IMG/VR virus record: IMGVR_UViG_3300043409_000542
Coordinates: 1 to 35,727 of that record
Source: a virus
DNA: 35,727 bases
Direction: 5' to 3' (one strand)
Shown: positions 9,602 to 22,648 of the stretch, in pieces
How the letters are laid out: every line of letters starts with the position of its first letter
How positions within the stretch are numbered: the first letter of the stretch is position 1
Program-made: the position numbers and the translations under genes
The notes under the pieces: generated by a model
The model's database searches: none
The model's input: only the letters and a program-made list of their open reading frames with translations
Told to the model about the DNA's origin: nothing

Positions 9602-9866
9602 AAAGCAAGTCGAACGCTACTTAGTCAAGAAGGTCGAGGCCGTCGGTGGCAAGGCGTACAAGTTCACCAGCCCAGGGCGTGGCGGTGTGGCCGACCGCAT
9701 TGTGTGCCTGCCCGATGGCAGCACTTGGTTCGTCGAACTCAAGACAGCAGGCGGCAAGATGTCCGCGCTGCAACTGATCTTCGCCGAGGACATGCGCCGA
9801 ATGAAGCAGAACTATACCGTGCTGTGGTCAAAGGAGGATGTGGATGCGTATCTTAATAGCCTGTGA
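9594..9866 (+). CDS. VRR-NUC domain nuclease
   Basis: Product of 90 residues, single-domain VRR-NUC endonuclease of the PD-(D/E)XK superfamily, probably resolving branched or flap DNA in replication or recombination. Catalytic residues visible: D34 in GVADRI, E48 and K50 in FVELK, and Q60. The N-terminus EKQVERYLVKKV and SPGRGGV are typical. GTG 9594 gives the usual family N-terminus; TTG 9585 is possible. It overlaps the next gene, with a strong AAGGAGG inside its own 3' end. Confidence 0.9.
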   Translation: MLEKQVERYLVKKVEAVGGKAYKFTSPGRGGVADRIVCLPDGSTWFVELKTAGGKMSALQLIFAEDMRRMKQNYTVLWSKEDVDAYLNSL

Positions 9867-10419
9867 GTACAGCGGTCGTGTGCGGGATGCGTTTATTGCC
9901 AAGGGCCATGACGCGATGTCATGCGACTTGCTGCCCACGGACGCGCCGGGGCCGCACTATCAAGGTGATGTGTTCGATGTTATCGGGGGGGGGTGGGACA
10001 TGATGATCGCACATCCACCTTGCACACATCTGGCCGTATCTGGTGCTATGCACTTCGCTGCCAAACGCGCCAGCGGCGTCCAGCAAAAGGCATTGGCATT
10101 TGTACAACAGTTGCTGGACGCGCCGATATCGCGCATTGCCTTGGAAAATCCAGTAAGCATTATCAGCAGCCACATACGAAAGCCAACGCAGATCATTCAC
10201 CCGTGGATGTTCGGGCACACAGAACAAAAGACCACTTGTCTATGGCTTAAAGGGGTTGCACATCTTGTGCCGACAAACGATGTAAAAGCGCAGATGCTGT
10301 TGCTACCCAAGAATCAACGCGAGCGTTTGCACTATTTACCCCCTAGCGCGGATCGTTGGAAACTGCGAAGCGCGACTTACCAAGGCATCGCCGACGCGAT
10401 GGCAGCACAATGGGGCTAA
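9844..10419 (+). CDS. cytosine C5 methyltransferase-like protein
   Basis: Product of 191 residues. The start at 9844 is chosen because AAGGAGG (9831-9837) lies 6 bases upstream; ATG 9838 is too close. Motifs resemble DNA cytosine-5 methyltransferases: an N-terminal SAM-binding-like strand (RILIACEYSG), HPPCTHLAVSG with C60 like motif IV, and LENP (100-103) like motif VI. FGHTEQKTTCLWL is a signature of this phage family. It lacks a recognisable target recognition domain, so activity and target are uncertain. It contains a run of nine G (9985-9993). It overlaps the helicase by 10 bases. Confidence 0.8.
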   Translation: MRILIACEYSGRVRDAFIAKGHDAMSCDLLPTDAPGPHYQGDVFDVIGGGWDMMIAHPPCTHLAVSGAMHFAAKRASGVQQKALAFVQQLLDAPISRIALENPVSIISSHIRKPTQIIHPWMFGHTEQKTTCLWLKGVAHLVPTNDVKAQMLLLPKNQRERLHYLPPSADRWKLRSATYQGIADAMAAQWG

Positions 10420-11678
10420 GACCATATCAAGTAGAGGCGGCTAACTTCTTGTTCGACAATGACCGGGCGATGATCCTCGCCCCGGTCGGCGCTGGCAAGA
10501 CAGCTATCACGCTCACGGCCATGCAGTCGGCGCTGCATGAGGGCGTGGTGAACCGCTTTCTGGTGCTGGCGCCCAAGCGCGTATGCACTAGCGTCTGGCT
10601 GCAAGAGCGCGACAAGTGGGCGCCCGCGATGAGCATGGCCGTGGCCGTGGGGACGCCCAAGCAGCGCGCAGCGGCGTTCAACTCAGTAGCTGATGTGGTA
10701 GTGACCAACTACGACAACTTGCAGTCGCTGCCCCATCTGGACTTCGACGGGATTGTGTTCGACGAGTTGACCCGGCTGAAGAACCCCAGCGGCGCCAGGT
10801 TCAAGGCGCTGCACAAGCTGATCGACTGCCCTGTGCGTTGGGGCTTGACCGGATCGTTTACCAGCAACGGGCTGGAGGATGTGTTCGGCCAATGCAAGAT
10901 TGTGGATCAGAAGCTGCTGGGCCGTTCCAAAGGCGCGTTTCAGCAGCAGTACTTCTACCTTGTCAACAAGGAGTTCAACGACTGGGCGCCGCGCAAGGGC
11001 AGTCTGGAAGCGGTGATGGAGCGCATCAAACCGGCCACCTTCGTCTTGGATGCGGGAGAGTACAAAGACAAGCTGCCGCCGCTGCACACGGTCGAGGTGC
11101 GCTGCGACATGGACATGACCAAGTACGACGAGATGAAGCAGCACTTCGTGGTGGAGTTCCCAACGGCCAAGGCCATAGCAGTCAACGCTGCTGTGGTCAC
11201 CGGCAAGCTGCAACAGATGGCAAGCGGGTTCGTGTACGGCGACTCGACCGAGTGGTTTAGCACCCACAAGTTCGACGCGCTGGACGATCTGCTGGCCGAG
11301 AACCAACGCGCTAACACGATCATCTTCTACACCTACCAAGAAGAACTTGCCGAGTTACGCCGACGCTACCCGAAGGCGCGGACGGTAGACGCAATCGACA
11401 GTTGGAACCGGGGCGAGGTTGAGTTGCTGCTGCTGCACCCCAAGAGCGCAGGGCATGGGCTGAACCTACAGCATGGCGGGTGCAAGTGCGTGTTCTTGTC
11501 GCTGCCGTGGTCGCTGGAGTTGTACGAGCAGGCCATCGGGCGCCTGCACAGGTCGGGTCAGGCCCATGCGGTGTGGGTCTACATCATGCTGACCAACAAA
11601 ACGGTGGACGAGAAAATTTGGGCCGCGCTGCACAGCAAGCGCGCGGTGTCGGATGTTGCAATGGAGGAGCTGAAATGA
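10410..11678 (+). CDS. SNF2/DEAD-like superfamily II helicase
   Basis: Product of 422 residues from ATG 10410, overlapping the preceding stop. Motifs: Q-like LRPYQVEA (3-10), Walker A GAGKT (27-31), Walker B VFDELT with D118 and E119, motif III LTGS (147-150), and motif VI GRLHRSGQ (377-384). Such compact SNF2 helicases are common in the replication regions of phages with VRR-NUC and DUF2800 nucleases. Likely role is DNA translocation or fork remodelling. The stop overlaps the next start (ATGA). Confidence 0.93.
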   Translation: MGLRPYQVEAANFLFDNDRAMILAPVGAGKTAITLTAMQSALHEGVVNRFLVLAPKRVCTSVWLQERDKWAPAMSMAVAVGTPKQRAAAFNSVADVVVTNYDNLQSLPHLDFDGIVFDELTRLKNPSGARFKALHKLIDCPVRWGLTGSFTSNGLEDVFGQCKIVDQKLLGRSKGAFQQQYFYLVNKEFNDWAPRKGSLEAVMERIKPATFVLDAGEYKDKLPPLHTVEVRCDMDMTKYDEMKQHFVVEFPTAKAIAVNAAVVTGKLQQMASGFVYGDSTEWFSTHKFDALDDLLAENQRANTIIFYTYQEELAELRRRYPKARTVDAIDSWNRGEVELLLLHPKSAGHGLNLQHGGCKCVFLSLPWSLELYEQAIGRLHRSGQAHAVWVYIMLTNKTVDEKIWAALHSKRAVSDVAMEELK

Positions 11679-11990: not shown

Positions 11991-12133
11991 ACATATCTTA
12001 TTTGACTCGGGTACGGGCGCACTTCAACTGCGCCGAGAAACATATCAACAGGCACAACATGCGCCAATGGGTGCGCTCGGTACGGTTCCTGGGCGACAAA
12101 TGGCTGCTGGCCGTACAGGTGGTGCGGAAATGA
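11987..12133 (+). CDS. hypothetical basic protein (48 residues)
   Basis: ATG 11987 to TGA 12131-12133, coupled by ATGA on both sides. The product is rich in Arg, His and Trp (HINRHNMRQWVRSVRF) and could bind nucleic acid. It directly precedes the transglycosylase-like gene. Family not recognised. Confidence 0.6.
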   Translation: MNISYLTRVRAHFNCAEKHINRHNMRQWVRSVRFLGDKWLLAVQVVRK

Positions 12134-12849
12134 TCCACTACCACGGGCTACCGATTACGCCAGCTACGGTGGCCGTAGTAGCCGTTAACGGAGGGCACGC
12201 GTTTGTTAGTTTTGCTCATTCAGATCAACTAGGCATAGCCATAGAGGTGTGCCAATCGTTTGCAGTTGACAACGGCGCTTTTTCCGCGTGGAAAGCCGGG
12301 CGGCCCGTAACCGATTGGCGTCCGTTCTATGGGTGGGTTGAGGCGTGTCGCCGCGTTCCGTCGTGTGACTTTGCAGTCATCCCCGATGTGATTGACGGCG
12401 ACGAAAACGCAAACGATGCGTTGTTGGATGAATGGCCTTTGGGAGCGGCTTTCGGCGCGCCTGTATGGCATATGCACGAATCGCTAGACAGGCTGGAGCG
12501 AATGGCTTTGACTTACTTGCGTGTGTGCATCGGCAGCAGCGGCCAGTACGCCAGCGTAGGAAACGATGCTTGGTGGAAACGAATTGACCAAGCGATGCGC
12601 GTAGTCTGTGATTCGCAAGGGCGTCCCCTGGTCAAAATGCACGGTCTTCGGATGCTGAATCCAAAAGTGTTTACGCGCCTTCCGCTTGCCAGCGCCGATT
12701 CGACTAATATCGGCCGGAATGTCGGCATTGACAAGAATTGGGCAAAGGGGAACTATTTGCCCCCTACTAAAGAAGCGCGCGCGCAAGTCATGCGATCACG
12801 CATTGAGTCACACAACGCACCATCAACTTATGAATACCTACAAGACTGA
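12130..12849 (+). CDS. TGT/DpdA-like deazaguanine transglycosylase
   Basis: Product of 239 residues from ATG 12130, coupled to the preceding stop. Read as a short member of the tRNA-guanine transglycosylase/DpdA superfamily, which exchanges guanine for a 7-deazaguanine base. Matching parts: DNGAFSAW (47-54) like the DSGG motif with the general acid Asp; CDFAVIPDVIDGD (79-91) like the substrate-binding Asp region; IGSSGQ (134-139) like the Gly motif; KMHGLR (169-174); and ADSTNIGRN (189-197), where D190 would be the nucleophile. No zinc-binding Cys set of tRNA TGT is visible, favouring DNA as target. Next come a QueF-like and a YhhQ-like gene. Alternative: an uncharacterised TIM barrel of another function. 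Confidence 0.75.
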   Translation: MIHYHGLPITPATVAVVAVNGGHAFVSFAHSDQLGIAIEVCQSFAVDNGAFSAWKAGRPVTDWRPFYGWVEACRRVPSCDFAVIPDVIDGDENANDALLDEWPLGAAFGAPVWHMHESLDRLERMALTYLRVCIGSSGQYASVGNDAWWKRIDQAMRVVCDSQGRPLVKMHGLRMLNPKVFTRLPLASADSTNIGRNVGIDKNWAKGNYLPPTKEARAQVMRSRIESHNAPSTYEYLQD

Positions 12850-13069
12850 ATTTTTCTGCTTGTGCCCTCTCAACGAAACGCGCATCAAATACTTTTTGGA
12901 GATTGCCACAGATGAAATAATTCCGGTAGAAGACATCATTGACCAATTTAAAAACTACGCCAGCGGCTTTCACGAACTGATTGCTGAAGACTTGCACAAA
13001 AAATTTGGTGGAAAACAAACCCTCGTCGCGGATCACCACGGCGTCACTATCGAAACGACAAGACCATGA
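12830..13069 (+). CDS. minimal QueF-like T-fold protein
   Basis: Product of 79 residues; ATG 12830 lies 20 bases inside the transglycosylase gene, without a clear ribosome site. The pattern fits the T-fold of QueF (preQ0 reductase): FFCLCP (8-13) like the catalytic-Cys strand, VED with E34 like the substrate Glu, two helices, FHE (47-49) matching the conserved QueF FHE, and a final strand HHGVTIE. It lacks the QueF ESKSLK-type NADPH motif, as does archaeal QueF-L, which adds ammonia to preQ0 to make archaeosine. It is much shorter than QueF (about 150 residues). Predicted to act on the deazaguanine nitrile; this is inference from motifs and neighbours. Confidence 0.6.
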   Translation: MNTYKTEFFCLCPLNETRIKYFLEIATDEIIPVEDIIDQFKNYASGFHELIAEDLHKKFGGKQTLVADHHGVTIETTRP

Positions 13070-13557
13070 TTCTCTACTTTGCGATTGCTCTCTATTTAAC
13101 GGCCATGATCTCGGCCAATTTACTTGTAGTGGCTTTTGGCCCTGCAATAAGCCCAATCAATGCCTTCTTTTTGATTGGCTTAGACCTTGCCCTGCGCGAT
13201 TGGTTGCATGTTCGATTGCGCGTTTGGCAAATGGGCGCGCTCATAGCCGCAACTGGCGCGCTTACTTATGTTCTCAACCCTGCCGCCGGTCAGATCGCCA
13301 TTGCGTCGGCGTGTGCGTTTACGGCTTCATCGCTTGTGGACTGGGGCGCGTTTACGCGGTTGCGCGGGTCATGGATGTTCCGCGCCAACGGTTCTAATGT
13401 GGTGGGCGCTGCGGTTGATAGCCTGTTGTTTCCAACAATTGCATTTGGTATGCTAATGCCTCAAATTGTCGCAATGCAATTTGTTGCCAAAGTAGCCGGC
13501 GGTGCTGTTTGGGCGTGGCTACTGGCCGTGCAGGTGCAGAAAAAGGTGCAGCTATGA
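13066..13557 (+). CDS. YhhQ/VUT-family queuosine-precursor transporter
   Basis: Product of 163 residues, integral membrane protein of the inner membrane with about five or six hydrophobic helices. The C-terminal half, FTRLRGSWMFRANGSNVVG followed by AVDSLLFPTIAFG, is characteristic of the VUT (YhhQ, DUF165) family that imports preQ0 or preQ1. It is shorter than E. coli YhhQ (about 220 residues), as phage versions tend to be. It is joined to the QueF-like gene by an ATGA overlap, so the two are probably translated together. It would supply the deazaguanine base for the transglycosylase. Confidence 0.85.
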   Translation: MILYFAIALYLTAMISANLLVVAFGPAISPINAFFLIGLDLALRDWLHVRLRVWQMGALIAATGALTYVLNPAAGQIAIASACAFTASSLVDWGAFTRLRGSWMFRANGSNVVGAAVDSLLFPTIAFGMLMPQIVAMQFVAKVAGGAVWAWLLAVQVQKKVQL

Positions 13558-16722: not shown

Positions 16723-19341
16723 CTATTCTTCTGTACCTTGCACCGCGCCGCGCATTGCGCCTGTTTTGATGTCCGACACGGCGTCCGCTACCCATTGAAG
16801 ACCGTATTTTTTTCCTATCTCTACGGCATCCGATATTTTTTGTTGGTTAAAGCCGCTGATTCTAGGTTCCAATGCGTTGAACACTTTCACCGCATCTGAT
16901 GGGTTTAGAAGCAAGGTTTTTAATTTTTCTTCAGTTTTAGCTGACGCAGTTTTAGCCCAATACTTACTGAACAGCGAAGACATAGCATATACCGGCCCAG
17001 AAACAGGGTTATAAATACGCGAAATAATTTGCTCCGGTGCTATACCTGTAAGTTGTTCTACAGGTGTTTTAGCTACTGTCTCGCCTCTAAATGGAACGGC
17101 GCTAACATCTTTAGCCAGCCTATCAGATGCAAGCGCAAAGTCCTGCACTTTTTGAGCGTAAGTAGGGCCAAATACGCGGTTAAATATGGCCGCTTTATTT
17201 CTATCTGCCAGCACAGTTAACGGAGATCCGGCGTTAACGATATCGTCCAGCATAAAAGATCGCACAGCGTTAACGGCATCTTTATTTTGCCCGTACTGGC
17301 TATTGGACATAAATTTTGATGTAAAGGCTAGATCGCCGTACATTTTTGCAACAAGTTCTTGCGGGCTTTTGAACCCGTTTTCGCTTATTAATTGTTCTCC
17401 CGCTACACGCTTAAACGCAGCATTTAACCTAACTCGTTCAGCTATCAGTTTTTGAACATTATCTACCGACCCGCGCAATTCATCTTCTAGTCCAGGCACT
17501 ATAGACACGCCGCCCTGATTGGTTTTTAACCATTTATTAGCGGCCTTAATGTCAATCACATCATTTTTAAGCGCGGCTTTGGTAAAGCTGTCAAAAAACG
17601 CATCTCGTACTATGGCCGTGCCTTCCGCGCCAGTAGCGCGTATGAACTCATCGGCGCTTGATTTATTGCCAATAATGGCGGGGCTAATTTGTTCGACAAA
17701 CTTTTTACGGTCTATTGATTTAAGGGCCTCAGAACTAAAAGGTAGTCCTACTTTTTCAAGATACGCTTTATCTGCGTTACGATACGCAGTTACAAAATCT
17801 GCGTCAAGCGCATCTATATGCCCAGCCACACGCGACTTTAATTCGGTCAACAAGCGTACATCCGACGCTTCGCTAGTTTTACGCAACTGCGAATTTATTT
17901 CACGCTTCAACGAGTCCAGGTCTTCTACTGTAGCCGCTGAAAATTTAACCCCCGCTGGGATAGCAGGCTTACCTTCAGCGGTAAGAATTGCGCTTGGCTC
18001 TGTAACTTCAGGGCGAAATTTAGCCCTGACGCGATTGTAGATAGACGGAAAAGTCTTAAATATATCTGACGCTTGCGCGCCTGCTACAAACCCATAAATA
18101 TCATCTACCGAACCAGACGGAAGTTCTAAATTTTTAGCGGCAGCTATATCAAACGCTTCTTGGTATAGCGGCTTAACCGAAACGCGCGCGGCTTTTTCTT
18201 TCTGCTCTACAAGCGCGGATATGCGTTGCCCAAATACAGTTGGATCTATAGTCCTATCGTTAGACAGGTCTGAAATTTGTTCATCTATCGACCGCACTCG
18301 TTTTACTTGTATGTTGGTTAAATCAGGCGCGCCTATTTTTAGCTGAACTTTAGACGGATCGCCAAATAAACGCATTTGATTTACCACTAGCGCCTGTTTA
18401 GCTGCTTCATATTGCGCGCCGTATTGCGCGCGGAACACCGGATCTTTTGCGGATAAATTTTGAATAAATGTATTGATGACCGGATTATCGGCCAACAATG
18501 CGCTTAACGGCATCTGAACATCAGCGCCGCCTGGGGCTTTTAACGACACGCTTTTCTGCGCTTTTGTCGCGGCTTCTAGTGTGGTTAAGAAGTTAGGGTC
18601 GGCAGCACCAGCGGCTATAAACACATTACTAATGCGGTTATCGACATCTTGCATTAGTTTATCTTCTGGGATGCCGCCTTTAATTTTTGTCCAAGTATCA
18701 CGCGCTAAATCAAGACCTTTTGTAGCCGCTAACTCAGTTACACGCGCTGCGGTTCCAAGGCCATATGCCGAAGTTGCACCGCCAAATAGCGACCCAAGAA
18801 TACGACCGGCTAACGGCATCTCAGCCTTGCCGCCAGCGTATTCCCCGGCTTGTCCACCAGTTTCTGCGCCAGCACCTACAACTGCTTGTTCAGTTGGGCG
18901 CATTAATGCCTGTCCAAACAACCCAAGTCTCTTAGTCGCCGCAAGTGGAGGGAAGGCGTAAGATTCTGGCGAAAACATTGCCTCTGTACCCGCAGCCAAG
19001 ATTTTTTGACCGCCGGTCTGTGGTTCTGCGCCGGTACTGCCAAGCGCAGCCATAGCAGGCTTATAGACAGCTTCTTTACCGGCTTTATACGCTTGCGTAA
19101 CGCCTTGGGGCGTCATTTGTGGCATGCCCAACGGCACACCGCCGCCCAGCATGGGGGTGACGCCGTAGGTAGCCATTACCTCGCCTATACCAGCCAAAGA
19201 CGATGGTAGCCCAGCTAAACCTTTACGCGCGCTCTCTAGCATCACTTTAAACGTAGATGGCGCGGAAAGTTCTTCTAGTTCTTCTGGCGTAAGCGCGGTA
19301 TCACTTCTGTACCGCTTACCTTCAATGTCGTAAACTGGCAT
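16723..19341 (-). CDS. large internal virion/DNA ejection protein
   Basis: Product of 872 residues, the largest protein of the genome; GAGGAATAAAA precedes ATG 19341. The N-terminus MPVYDIEGKRYR and an early hydrophobic, Gly-rich part are followed by long helical segments. Size and position, behind the stabilisation protein and two other long helical proteins, match the internal core or ejection proteins of podoviruses that form the DNA channel through the host envelope. No peptidoglycan-cleaving motif was spotted. This gene and its neighbours at 17-20 kb look more AT-rich than the replication region. Confidence 0.7.
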   Translation of the reverse strand: MPVYDIEGKRYRSDTALTPEELEELSAPSTFKVMLESARKGLAGLPSSLAGIGEVMATYGVTPMLGGGVPLGMPQMTPQGVTQAYKAGKEAVYKPAMAALGSTGAEPQTGGQKILAAGTEAMFSPESYAFPPLAATKRLGLFGQALMRPTEQAVVGAGAETGGQAGEYAGGKAEMPLAGRILGSLFGGATSAYGLGTAARVTELAATKGLDLARDTWTKIKGGIPEDKLMQDVDNRISNVFIAAGAADPNFLTTLEAATKAQKSVSLKAPGGADVQMPLSALLADNPVINTFIQNLSAKDPVFRAQYGAQYEAAKQALVVNQMRLFGDPSKVQLKIGAPDLTNIQVKRVRSIDEQISDLSNDRTIDPTVFGQRISALVEQKEKAARVSVKPLYQEAFDIAAAKNLELPSGSVDDIYGFVAGAQASDIFKTFPSIYNRVRAKFRPEVTEPSAILTAEGKPAIPAGVKFSAATVEDLDSLKREINSQLRKTSEASDVRLLTELKSRVAGHIDALDADFVTAYRNADKAYLEKVGLPFSSEALKSIDRKKFVEQISPAIIGNKSSADEFIRATGAEGTAIVRDAFFDSFTKAALKNDVIDIKAANKWLKTNQGGVSIVPGLEDELRGSVDNVQKLIAERVRLNAAFKRVAGEQLISENGFKSPQELVAKMYGDLAFTSKFMSNSQYGQNKDAVNAVRSFMLDDIVNAGSPLTVLADRNKAAIFNRVFGPTYAQKVQDFALASDRLAKDVSAVPFRGETVAKTPVEQLTGIAPEQIISRIYNPVSGPVYAMSSLFSKYWAKTASAKTEEKLKTLLLNPSDAVKVFNALEPRISGFNQQKISDAVEIGKKYGLQWVADAVSDIKTGAMRGAVQGTEE

Positions 19342-19343
19342 TT

Positions 19344-20819
19344 TTATTCCTCTACAACGGTTACCATTTTTCCGCTATTTAATTTAATTTGTTTACCGCC
19401 CATAGCTGCTGATTCGGGTTTTGGACGAAACTCGGGTATATCTGTAACTGCTGCAAAATCAGCATCATTAAAACCAGCGCGTTTAGCAAGTGCTTTTTGT
19501 GCTGCCAATTCTTCTTGGCCTTTCTTGAGCGAGACTTTGCGTATGGCAATCAGCGTATTTTTTATCTGTTTTTGTGTATCAAGTGTAGGTGTCCCGCTAA
19601 CAAGTTTAGATAAATAATCCGCTGTCCCGCCTAATAAACTAGGATCGGCGCCAGCAGCAAGAAGTTCTTTTTGGCTTAAATCACCAGCACCAGAGATAGC
19701 GCGTGCAAACTGTGTTTGCCCAGCCCTAAATGCGGCAAAATTATTTGTGCTCATGGATAGATCAATAGCATCAACAGCAGCATCTGCGGCGTTTATAGTT
19801 TTTCTAAATGGATCTATAGTTTGAATAACGGCCGTTCTTAGCCCCGGTATATCTTTTACGCCTTTAATCTCTGGAATCTTAGGCGCTGATTTTGCAGCGA
19901 CTGTCCCTTTATTTTCTTCTATGGTCGTATTTACTTTGGCGCGTTCGACTTGTGTAAGATCACCAAAAGATTTATCAAACAGTTCCATCGAAACCGCTTC
20001 TCTATCAACACCAAATCTATCAGATTTAGTAGCTTTTTCTATTAACTTATTTACATCTGCTGCTTGCCCCTGCGTTAATTCACCGTATGACTTTCCAAAA
20101 GTTGCAAATGCCATTCGTTCAGCATCTGGCCCTGCGGTAATTTTTTTGCCCGTTGATTGGCCAAGTAGTCTAGCGTACTCTGCGTTGAATTCTGGCGTAC
20201 CAAAAGGGAATTTCGTTAGCGCTAGGGCCGTTGCGTTCTTCATTTCGGGCGTTGTGACTTCGGCTTTTTCTTGGCGTTTAAGTTGCTCTATTTCAGCATC
20301 TATGGCATCTCTTTCTGGGCCGTATGGGCTAACATTCGCGCGCTCCATCGTAAGTTCGCGTATACGGGTGGCTATCTGAACCGCCGGGGCCACACCTTCT
20401 TTAGGTGTTCTAGATGCTGCTGCTAAGGATGCTTTAGCGGCGGCGGTCTTCTGCTCTACGCCAGCCAGTTCAGATTGCGCTTGACGGGCGTAGTTGGCTA
20501 GGCTCATGGCACCTTCGTTATCGCCTGATTGGGCAAGCAGCTTTGCGCCCTGCATGATCGACTCAGGGTTCGATTGGTCGATTTGTTGCAGCACAGCATT
20601 GCGACCGCTGATGATCTTCATCTGCGGATCTTCGCCGCCGAACATGCGGCCTAGCCCACCAGCCAGCCCATACGCGCCGCTTTGGATGTTCAAGTTGGCC
20701 TGCTGTTGGGGCGTTAGCTGAACATTTTGAAACGCACGCGCATCAAACGCAGCTTGCTGCTGCTGACGGTACGATTCGGGCGTTACGCCGAAAAGACCAG
20801 GAACAATGTTAGTTGCCAT
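19344..20819 (-). CDS. internal virion protein (second)
   Basis: Product of 491 residues with AAGGATACTAATC before the start. It begins MATNIVPGLFGVTPESYRQQ and is helical throughout, with Gln- and Ala-rich stretches and a repeated pair of related segments (MAFATFGKSYGELTQGQAAD and MELFDKSFGDLTQVERAK) spaced about 50 residues apart. Its place between two other long helical proteins supports a virion-internal or ejection role. No enzyme motif seen. Confidence 0.7.
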   Translation of the reverse strand: MATNIVPGLFGVTPESYRQQQQAAFDARAFQNVQLTPQQQANLNIQSGAYGLAGGLGRMFGGEDPQMKIISGRNAVLQQIDQSNPESIMQGAKLLAQSGDNEGAMSLANYARQAQSELAGVEQKTAAAKASLAAASRTPKEGVAPAVQIATRIRELTMERANVSPYGPERDAIDAEIEQLKRQEKAEVTTPEMKNATALALTKFPFGTPEFNAEYARLLGQSTGKKITAGPDAERMAFATFGKSYGELTQGQAADVNKLIEKATKSDRFGVDREAVSMELFDKSFGDLTQVERAKVNTTIEENKGTVAAKSAPKIPEIKGVKDIPGLRTAVIQTIDPFRKTINAADAAVDAIDLSMSTNNFAAFRAGQTQFARAISGAGDLSQKELLAAGADPSLLGGTADYLSKLVSGTPTLDTQKQIKNTLIAIRKVSLKKGQEELAAQKALAKRAGFNDADFAAVTDIPEFRPKPESAAMGGKQIKLNSGKMVTVVEE

Positions 20820-20830
20820 GATTAGTATCC

Positions 20831-22648
20831 TTAGCTGCTAAAAATTTTAGACAGATAATCAGCAAAGGCTGCGCTTCCTCCCGCACCCGTTAGGACAGAC
20901 GCAAACGGATTGTATTGATTCGCGGGTACTGATGCCTGCGCTGCTGCCGTACCGCCCTTGAACAATGCCTCTGCGCCGGTCGGGTTGGCGTTCTTACTGC
21001 CGATGTTCATGCCAAGCTGGAACGGTTGCTGGCCTAACTCCTCCAATTGCGTCACGCCAGCCATAGCCGCCTTGTACGGATCATAAGCGCCGACTTGCCC
21101 CTGCTGGTATTGCGACAATGCCTGGGCGCCAGCCCCAAACAAGCCCTGACCGAAGGCGTACTGTTGCTGACCGGCCTGCTGGGCGCCTGCCGCAAGTTGC
21201 GCGTCCGCTTGCATTTGAGCGTTGTAGTAGGCTTCCAGTTCAGGGCTAGCCGCCGCGCGGCCTGTTCCGAACCCATATCTACTAAGACCCTTTGCGATAT
21301 CTGCGTCAGAAAAGCCTTGCTTACGGGACTCGTCTATGGCCTTAACAAGTTGTTCTGGCGTGTACTGTGGGCCAGTAGCGCCAACGGCCACGCCACTACG
21401 ACCTTGCTGGTACAGTTTGTTTTGCAGATCGGCTAGGCTGCGCTCACGCCCAGGTTGCAGTAGCGCCTGCTGGCTTGAGATGTACTTAGCCGCGACTTGC
21501 TCTGGCGTTTCGGCGGCGTAACTTGCGCCAAGTTTGAACAGACCTTCTGCTGAAGTTTTAAGCGGTGCGTACAGATTGGCCGCGCCTTCTGCCTGTGTAA
21601 GCCCGGTAACACTAAGCGCCTGCATCCGGTCTTGGTACGCCTTCATCTCAGGCGTTAGGGTGTACCCGGCAGAAGTCACGCGCCCGGTCACAGGGTCGGT
21701 AACGAAGTTGGATGTACCAAATTTAGTCGTAACGCCAACTGGCCTAAACCGCGCCTCATCAGCGGCTATTTTTGCCGCATCAGTTAGGGCTTGTGCTTGT
21801 ATGCGCGCGGCTTCAACATTGCTTTGCCCCTGCATCAGCCCACCAGCAGTCTGTAAAGCCCCGGAGATTGCGGCGGCTATCTGAGCCGCAGTCAATGCGG
21901 TGCCAGCAGTAGATGCTATTTTGGACGCCGCATCGGCTACTTGAGCGGTAGTAAGACCAGTCTGGGCGGCAGTAGCAGCTATCTGAGCCGCCGTAAGAGT
22001 GCCAGTACCAGCGGCTGCTGTCTGAGCGGCTAATTCAGCGGCGGTATAGGCGCCTGGGCCAGCAGCTATGGTAGAAGTAAGAAGGCCAGTACCGCCAGCA
22101 GTAGCAGCATTGGCGGCTGCTGTCTGAGCGGCTAATTCAGCGGCGGTATAGGCGCCTGGGCCAGCAGCTATGGTAGAAGTAAGAAGGCCAGTACCGCCAG
22201 CAGTAGCAGCACCTAAAAGCCCACCGACAGCATTAACCCCAAGACCAGTAAGCGCGGCGGGAAGAACGAAATCGGTGGCTAGTGTGCCGACATTGGACAA
22301 CATGCGACTAGCGGTGCTAGTCTCATCACGCACATACTGACCCTTCGTGTCAAAAATCTGAACTGCGCCAGTAGGGCTTGTCTTGCTATAGCCCTCTACG
22401 GTATTGGTAAATTTTAGCTGGGGTGTCTCTTGACTTTGATCGTAATACGAACTATAGATAGGTGTAAGACCGGGCGGCGTAACTGCGTTATTGGCAAAGT
22501 AGCTTGCTACATTGGTAGCCGGGATACCTGTTGCGCTAGACAGTTCTTCTATCGTAAGGCCTTGGGCTGCTGCGTATTTAGCTATGACATCTGGCTTGTC
22601 TATGTTATCTACAACATATTTGCGTATTGTTTCTGCTTTAGTAGCCAT
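20831..22648 (-). CDS. internal virion protein with a recent 34-residue tandem duplication
   Basis: Product of 605 residues, ribosome site AAGGAACGATC. The N-terminal half contains an Ala/Thr/Gly-rich repeat region with TGLLTSTIAAGPGAYTAAEL occurring twice, then a helical region (EAARIQAQALTDAAKIAADE) and GTSNFVTDPVTGRV, which I associate with podovirus internal or tail-hub proteins. No enzyme domain. Role in DNA ejection inferred from neighbours. Confidence 0.7.
   Translation of the reverse strand: MATKAETIRKYVVDNIDKPDVIAKYAAAQGLTIEELSSATGIPATNVASYFANNAVTPPGLTPIYSSYYDQSQETPQLKFTNTVEGYSKTSPTGAVQIFDTKGQYVRDETSTASRMLSNVGTLATDFVLPAALTGLGVNAVGGLLGAATAGGTGLLTSTIAAGPGAYTAAELAAQTAAANAATAGGTGLLTSTIAAGPGAYTAAELAAQTAAAGTGTLTAAQIAATAAQTGLTTAQVADAASKIASTAGTALTAAQIAAAISGALQTAGGLMQGQSNVEAARIQAQALTDAAKIAADEARFRPVGVTTKFGTSNFVTDPVTGRVTSAGYTLTPEMKAYQDRMQALSVTGLTQAEGAANLYAPLKTSAEGLFKLGASYAAETPEQVAAKYISSQQALLQPGRERSLADLQNKLYQQGRSGVAVGATGPQYTPEQLVKAIDESRKQGFSDADIAKGLSRYGFGTGRAAASPELEAYYNAQMQADAQLAAGAQQAGQQQYAFGQGLFGAGAQALSQYQQGQVGAYDPYKAAMAGVTQLEELGQQPFQLGMNIGSKNANPTGAEALFKGGTAAAQASVPANQYNPFASVLTGAGGSAAFADYLSKIFSS
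22011..22211. repeat. 102-bp in-frame tandem duplication
   Basis: Bases 22011-22109 and 22113-22211 are identical over 99 bases with a period of 102, or 34 codons. Complete identity at third codon positions marks it as a very recent duplication, or a length-variable repeat. Confidence 0.9.

Follow-up and report, generated by a model that had tools for sequence, protein, structure and literature searches.

A three-gene phage cassette predicted to salvage 7-deazaguanine bases for DNA modification

Can a virus modify its DNA with 7-deazaguanines using three overlapping genes, none of which makes the precursor? Well-studied 7-deazaguanine phages such as 9g devote five or more genes to making and inserting the base. 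The window analysed here is the whole IMG/VR virus record IMGVR_UViG_3300043409_000542 (35,727 bases, class 'linear'), in which we looked for a terminal direct repeat and found none. Because it codes for virion proteins (tail spike, portal, major head, large terminase), an endolysin and replication proteins (family A DNA polymerase, primase and SNF2-type helicase, besides a DNA methyltransferase-like protein), we assign it to a tailed phage. An earlier note, made from the sequence alone, had read three of its genes as a lean system that imports a 7-deazaguanine precursor, inserts it into DNA and tailors it. The core of that reading holds: a single operon codes for DpdA, a T-fold protein and a transporter, and genes for making preQ0 are missing. 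We consider that they probably form a salvage-type 7-deazaguanine DNA-modification cassette of bacteriophage, in which the product of the second gene would do the tailoring.

Features of the cassette, with positions in the window
Feature	Position	Strand	Basis
dpdA, TGT-like guanine transglycosylase, 239 aa	12130..12849	+	phrog_887, MED16 gp38 homology
queF-L-like T-fold protein, 79 aa	12830..13069	+	phrog_37496, predicted fold
Vut_1/YhhQ-type membrane transporter, 163 aa	13066..13557	+	PF02592
20-base overlap, dpdA end / queF-like start	12830..12849	+	
4-base ATGA stop-start overlap, queF-like / transporter	13066..13069	+	

The coordinates, frames and overlaps first given for the three genes are all exact. 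Comparison with relatives indicates purifying selection on each of them, with dN/dS values of 0.04-0.08 for dpdA, 0.07-0.28 for the queF-like gene and 0.04-0.09 for the transporter gene; the excess of synonymous over non-synonymous changes is large in each, which shows that the short middle frame is a genuine gene. The trio had also been described as more AT-rich than its flanks, a hint of separate acquisition. Its GC content of 0.524 against a contig mean of 0.539, at the 38th percentile of equal-sized windows, does not support the description, and only the queF-like gene is AT-rich within the trio (GC 0.429). The compositional argument for separate acquisition thus falls, while modular acquisition is supported on other grounds, namely the gain and loss of the queF-like gene and the layout of related contigs (see below). 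Just upstream of the cassette, at 9838-11678, a DNA-methyltransferase-like gene (phrog_757) overlaps the SNF2-type helicase gene; MED16 likewise has a DNA N-6-adenine methyltransferase gene near its dpdA.

The search for the same trio in other phages, proposed in the earlier note, found the DpdA-transporter pair or the trio in many viruses; Rhizobium phage RHph_X2_30 is an example with the trio. With the transporter as the only query, IMG/VR returned 80 contigs, in 77 of which DpdA adjoins it and in 12 of which the queF-like gene is also present; with DpdA as the query, the transporter occurred in 70 and the queF-like gene in 23 of 80 contigs; and DpdA adjoins the queF-like gene in all 17 loci found with the latter (13 IMG/VR contigs, Pseudomonas phage Epa33, Mae-JY30, RHph_X2_30 and one MAG contig), although many contigs are near copies and these linkage counts are not independent. 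The same DpdA-transporter pairing is found in the unrelated isolates AB3P2, Pectobacterium phage PEAT2, Opt-719, Tbat1_6, LHE71 and Phc. Contigs L184, L186 and L187 are exceptions to it. Among isolates, phage mEp021 (L207, 2459-3726) is one: next after its gene for a membrane protein resembling YhhQ comes an annotated DNA cytosine methyltransferase gene, with no DpdA.

The queF-like gene is an optional insert that lies beside DpdA wherever it is found. Parsimony places 10 gains or losses of it on the DpdA tree, at least 6 of them forced by well-supported branches. Two contigs with near-identical DpdA illustrate the difference: in L066 the transporter gene follows dpdA directly, whereas in L069 the queF-like gene lies between them at an ATGA junction. 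Since near-identical DpdA proteins occur with and without the queF-like protein, DpdA most likely inserts the same base in both cases and the base is tailored afterwards; the pair offers a natural comparison for deciding which enzyme sets the final base. The cassette as a whole also differs among relatives. The closest relative contig (L213) carries it at the same place with 96-99% identity, and in L022 and L047 it lies before the SNF2 helicase gene rather than after it. DpdA was not found in G014 (36.6 kb), G015 and G016, which have the same helicase and polymerase and some of which are fragments. This variable placement and presence among relatives marks the cassette as an accessory module.

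The product of the middle gene belongs to a family of 'unknown function' (phrog_37496, 5e-17). An AlphaFold2 model built from 15 family members (pLDDT 95.6) shows the element order strand-strand-helix-helix-strand-strand, and the first 13 rows of a Foldseek search of the PDB with this model were all archaeosine synthase QueF-Like. The best VIA-align match was likewise QueF-Like (5jyx/5k0p; Z 12.1, rmsd 1.4, 79 of 79 residues, 23% identity), followed by GTP cyclohydrolase (Z 10.5) and unimodular QueF (Z 9.4); in a viral structure library the top match was an unnamed 83-residue protein and the third an 'archaeosine synthase'. From this model we confidently predict a T-fold protein that is structurally nearest to archaeosine synthase QueF-Like. 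Sequence comparison was far less informative: PDB searches with the protein, the family profile and a Microcystis phage homologue gave chance matches only, and hhalign with a QueF profile of four sequences reached no more than E 0.003, a weak result even as the best of seven comparisons. A mixed profile that included QueF sequences matched QueF entries, a circular result that we discarded as evidence.

The conserved residues of the family are C12, N15, E34, H48, E49, H69 and R78; all 18 sequences carry Cys12, Glu34, Glu49, His69 and Arg78, and 17 carry His48. Residues 1 to 79 of the model align with 10 to 100 of the QueF-L chain, which puts Cys12 at about residue 21, with the register set by the aligned ranges and the motif. 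The catalytic cysteine of QueF-L is Cys21, and a general acid/base Asp is common to QueF and QueF-L (PMC5485725). We sought that Asp at Cys+7 (position 19) and found Ile or Val in all 18 sequences. The product is a QueF-L-like scaffold without one defining catalytic residue of QueF-L, and its catalysis may therefore differ or be absent. The original description of the protein as QueF-like stands in part: it has the T-fold together with Cys, His and Glu, but it is nearer to QueF-L than to the reductase QueF and lacks the catalytic Asp.

Three other accounts of the middle gene differ in how well they fit these observations. The 79-residue protein might found a new class of tiny DNA-acting T-fold enzymes that dispense with the Asp of QueF and QueF-L, an idea we hold only tentatively; the conserved Asn/Asp at Cys+3 would then perhaps replace the Asp in catalysis, and the nitrile of incorporated preQ0 might, as tentatively, give dG+ or dADG, or else a base that DNA has so far not been seen to contain. 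Somewhat unlikely, in our judgement, is a non-catalytic role, in which the protein would act as a binding subunit or chaperone and hand preQ0 or DNA to DpdA; a very small, dispensable protein that always lies beside DpdA and has lost the Asp would suit such a role, but the invariance of Cys12 and Glu49 in all 18 sequences, and the presence of His48 in 17, count against it. Less likely still, the protein could act ahead of DpdA, as a QueF-type reductase that turns free preQ0 into preQ1; DpdA would then insert preQ1 and yield dPreQ1 as in Dp-1 and HVTV-1. QueF and QueF-L do share the T-fold and the cysteine, and phage proteins first named QueF-L proved to give dPreQ1 (PMC6884629). The structural and genetic evidence nevertheless goes against a reductase: besides the loss of the Asp, the model is nearer to QueF-L than to unimodular QueF, and the same DpdA occurs with and without the gene. 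The NADPH-binding motif of QueF is E[SL]K[SA]hK[LY][YFW], present as ESKSLKLYL in the enzymes of Dp-1 and B. subtilis; a search for it in the queF-like protein found VEDIIDQF instead, where the Glu alone is retained.

For the first gene, the proposal of a TGT/DpdA-like protein is well supported. It matches phrog_887 (annotated queuine tRNA-ribosyltransferase) at 2e-68 and shares 39% identity, along the whole protein, with gp38 of Pantoea phage MED16 (244 columns, E 3e-54), and an HMM of its family matches the DpdA proteins of MED16 (1e-64), Seurat (6e-14), 9g (1e-9) and Dp-1 (8e-7). In an hhalign alignment with 9g DpdA (E 7e-10), D47 falls on the 9g motif DSGAFSA and D190 on SCDSS, and the corresponding stretches are VDNGAFSA/LDSGAFSA, HGLRM/HGFGI and ASADSTN/SCDSSS. 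D47, D86 and D190, the TGT/DpdA catalytic positions, are invariant in 43 relatives; D80, which had been named with them, is variable, being kept in 40 of the 43. The AlphaFold2 model is a barrel (pLDDT 74) that VIA-align places closest to arcTGT 1j2b (Z 11.0, rmsd 4.3, 220 residues), with other TIM barrels tied and PdxJ and TrpA within about 1 Z; Foldseek with the model gave no match under 0.001, its rows being mostly tryptophan-synthase barrels. As the fold matches are ambiguous among barrels, the identification of gene 1 as a phage DpdA is based on sequence and motifs, not on fold. Its membership of the DpdA2 subfamily was ruled out, since neither BLASTP nor hhalign gave any similarity to DpdA2 of Vibrio phage nt-1.

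A TGT encoded next to a precursor transporter could instead raise queuosine in host tRNA, both genes serving as metabolic helpers, with DNA left unmodified. TGT and DpdA share fold and motifs, the model matches tRNA TGTs and other barrels among solved structures, and phages with preQ0 genes but without DpdA may act in this way (PMC6884629). We give the idea little credence, however, because the closest relatives are DpdA proteins, some from phages with modified DNA, and Pfam and NCBIfam searches, TGT models included, gave no match. The zinc site of tRNA-TGT uses cysteines, and since no Cys follows D190 in the dpdA product, that site is absent from it.

The assignment of the third gene to the YhhQ/VUT transporters is borne out by Pfam, as its product matches Vut_1 PF02592 (6.6e-13) with 49.7 bits against a gathering cut-off of 27.2. 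The queuosine precursor transporter model TIGR00697 matches residues 76-143 only (1e-6), its 28.7 bits lying below the cut-off of 50.95, and the protein has about five hydrophobic segments. Within the YhhQ/QPTR family, the E. coli member takes up preQ0 and preQ1 and the Chlamydia member queuine (PMC11130926). Because they differ in substrate, we take that of gene 3 from its context rather than from its sequence, and predict import of preQ0 or preQ1. That the transporter carries another small molecule and adjoins dpdA by chance is very improbable: Pfam names the family a putative vitamin uptake transporter, the TIGR00697 score is under its cut-off and the distant relative in mEp021 has no DpdA nearby, but DpdA adjoins nearly all the transporters found by the transporter search alone, and the pairing is repeated in unrelated isolates.

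The earlier note had seen no queC/D/E. Models for QueC, PTPS/QueD, FolE, radical-SAM (QueE) and Pfam QueF (PF14489) found nothing in the 35.7-kb record, nor in the longest of the relatives to which each was applied, whereas in control phages they detected QueC, QueD, FolE and radical-SAM proteins (9g) and QueF (Dp-1 and HVTV-1). This confirms the observation, and since the record may lack an end the absence is strong, not final. With no FolE, QueD, QueE, QueC or classical QueF encoded in the record, the precursor would have to come from the host or the medium. The Dp-1 control protein gp01 (L105, from base 131) is annotated as GTP cyclohydrolase and is actually a full QueF with the NADPH motif.

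We thus favour a mechanism in which import and insertion form the common core and T-fold tailoring an optional step that viruses gain and lose. The YhhQ/Vut-type transporter would bring additional preQ0 (or preQ1) into the cell, and host-made precursor could be used too. DpdA would then exchange guanines of the phage DNA for that base, with D190 as the putative nucleophile and D47 and D86 in the active site. Most likely, the 79-residue protein would attack the nitrile of DNA-borne dPreQ0 through Cys12; the resulting thioimide would be resolved by ammonia or water to dG+ or dADG. As the final base, dG+ is quite possible though short of probable, dADG is rather doubtful and dPreQ1 unlikely, what is left falling to another base or to no reaction at all.

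A close experimental precedent is MED16, a phage with dADG in its DNA that encodes dpdA as its sole pathway gene, without preQ0 genes (PMC8306585). MED16 thus resembles the record in its DpdA, in lacking preQ0 synthesis genes and in depending on a host or environmental precursor; unlike the record, it showed neither the transporter family nor the queF-like family in the 14 kb around dpdA, and its dADG arises without a queF-like gene nearby. The earlier note had added that such modification protects phage DNA from restriction. For this DpdA branch protection is only a plausible prediction; in MED16, dADG replaces no more than about 0.13% of G and the DNA was cut by most enzymes tested (PMC8306585), and phage Orion has DpdA but no detectable modification (PMC6884629).

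Other systems match the record in part. Pyrobaculum calidifontis QueF-Like (5jyx, 5k0p), the nearest solved structure, has the T-fold and, by the aligned ranges, a Cys at the matching place; it differs in having about 109 residues rather than 79, the acid/base Asp where the phage family has Ile/Val, and tRNA rather than the DNA predicted here as substrate. Gp33 of Sphingomonas phage vB_StuS_MMDA13 is likewise a small phage QueF-L-type protein from a dpdA cluster and shares the CPxN and Glu motifs, but it has 98 residues and an Asp seven positions after the Cys (Cys+7), and it comes from a cluster that supplies preQ0 itself (FolE, QueD, QueE, QueC), which the record's does not. 9g and CAjan/Seurat have DpdA with the same motifs as the record's but encode preQ0 synthesis genes, and 9g has Gat-QueC as amidotransferase. 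RHph_X2_30 carries the same three families in one gene run, annotated as DUF165 or hypothetical and unrecognised as a trio; its order differs and an extra small gene lies between the transporter and queF-like genes.

Later DpdA subfamilies include DpdA3 and DpdA4. DpdA, phage YhhQ homologues and dependence on host or exogenous precursor had already been named (PMC6884629). Group 3 of Hutinet et al. 2019 has DpdA without synthesis genes, as in the record, and some phages encode YhhQ homologues; in the record and most of its environmental relatives, by contrast, the genes form a tightly overlapping unit, and in the record a third gene, for the T-fold protein, is inserted between dpdA and the transporter gene. 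What is added to PMC6884629 is that environmental viruses carry DpdA and transporter as this tight unit, together with a previously unnamed T-fold family linked to the unit. The findings offer a candidate function for two PHROG families of 'unknown function', 37496 and 4899, and suggest that many environmental viruses may make and insert a 7-deazaguanine by salvage with two or three genes, so that modified viral DNA may be commoner than queC/D/E-based surveys suggest.

Several further observations concern hosts and neighbouring loci. A 3-kb trio contig (L123, CAITJF010000155.1), whose queF-like gene is 97% identical, is binned with an uncultured Nitrosomonadales genome that has QueC, which is a weak hint of a Nitrosomonadales host or else mis-binned virus DNA. 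A 1.7-kb entry labelled 'Staphylococcus phage SA 1298 Kay' (OR850331.1) codes for a DpdA whose identity, 55%, equals that of the Salmonella phage set, so that the entry may be contaminated or wrongly labelled. On the minus strand of the record, at 16723-22648 between the lysis and tail genes, frames of 872, 491 and 605 aa gave no PHROG match at 1e-4 and are possibly fast-evolving virion or injection proteins. Finally, Caulobacter phage DMCA may represent a stage between salvage and complete synthesis: its DpdA (21284-21919), which belongs to the same branch, overlaps a feature annotated as 6-carboxytetrahydropterin synthase (QueD).
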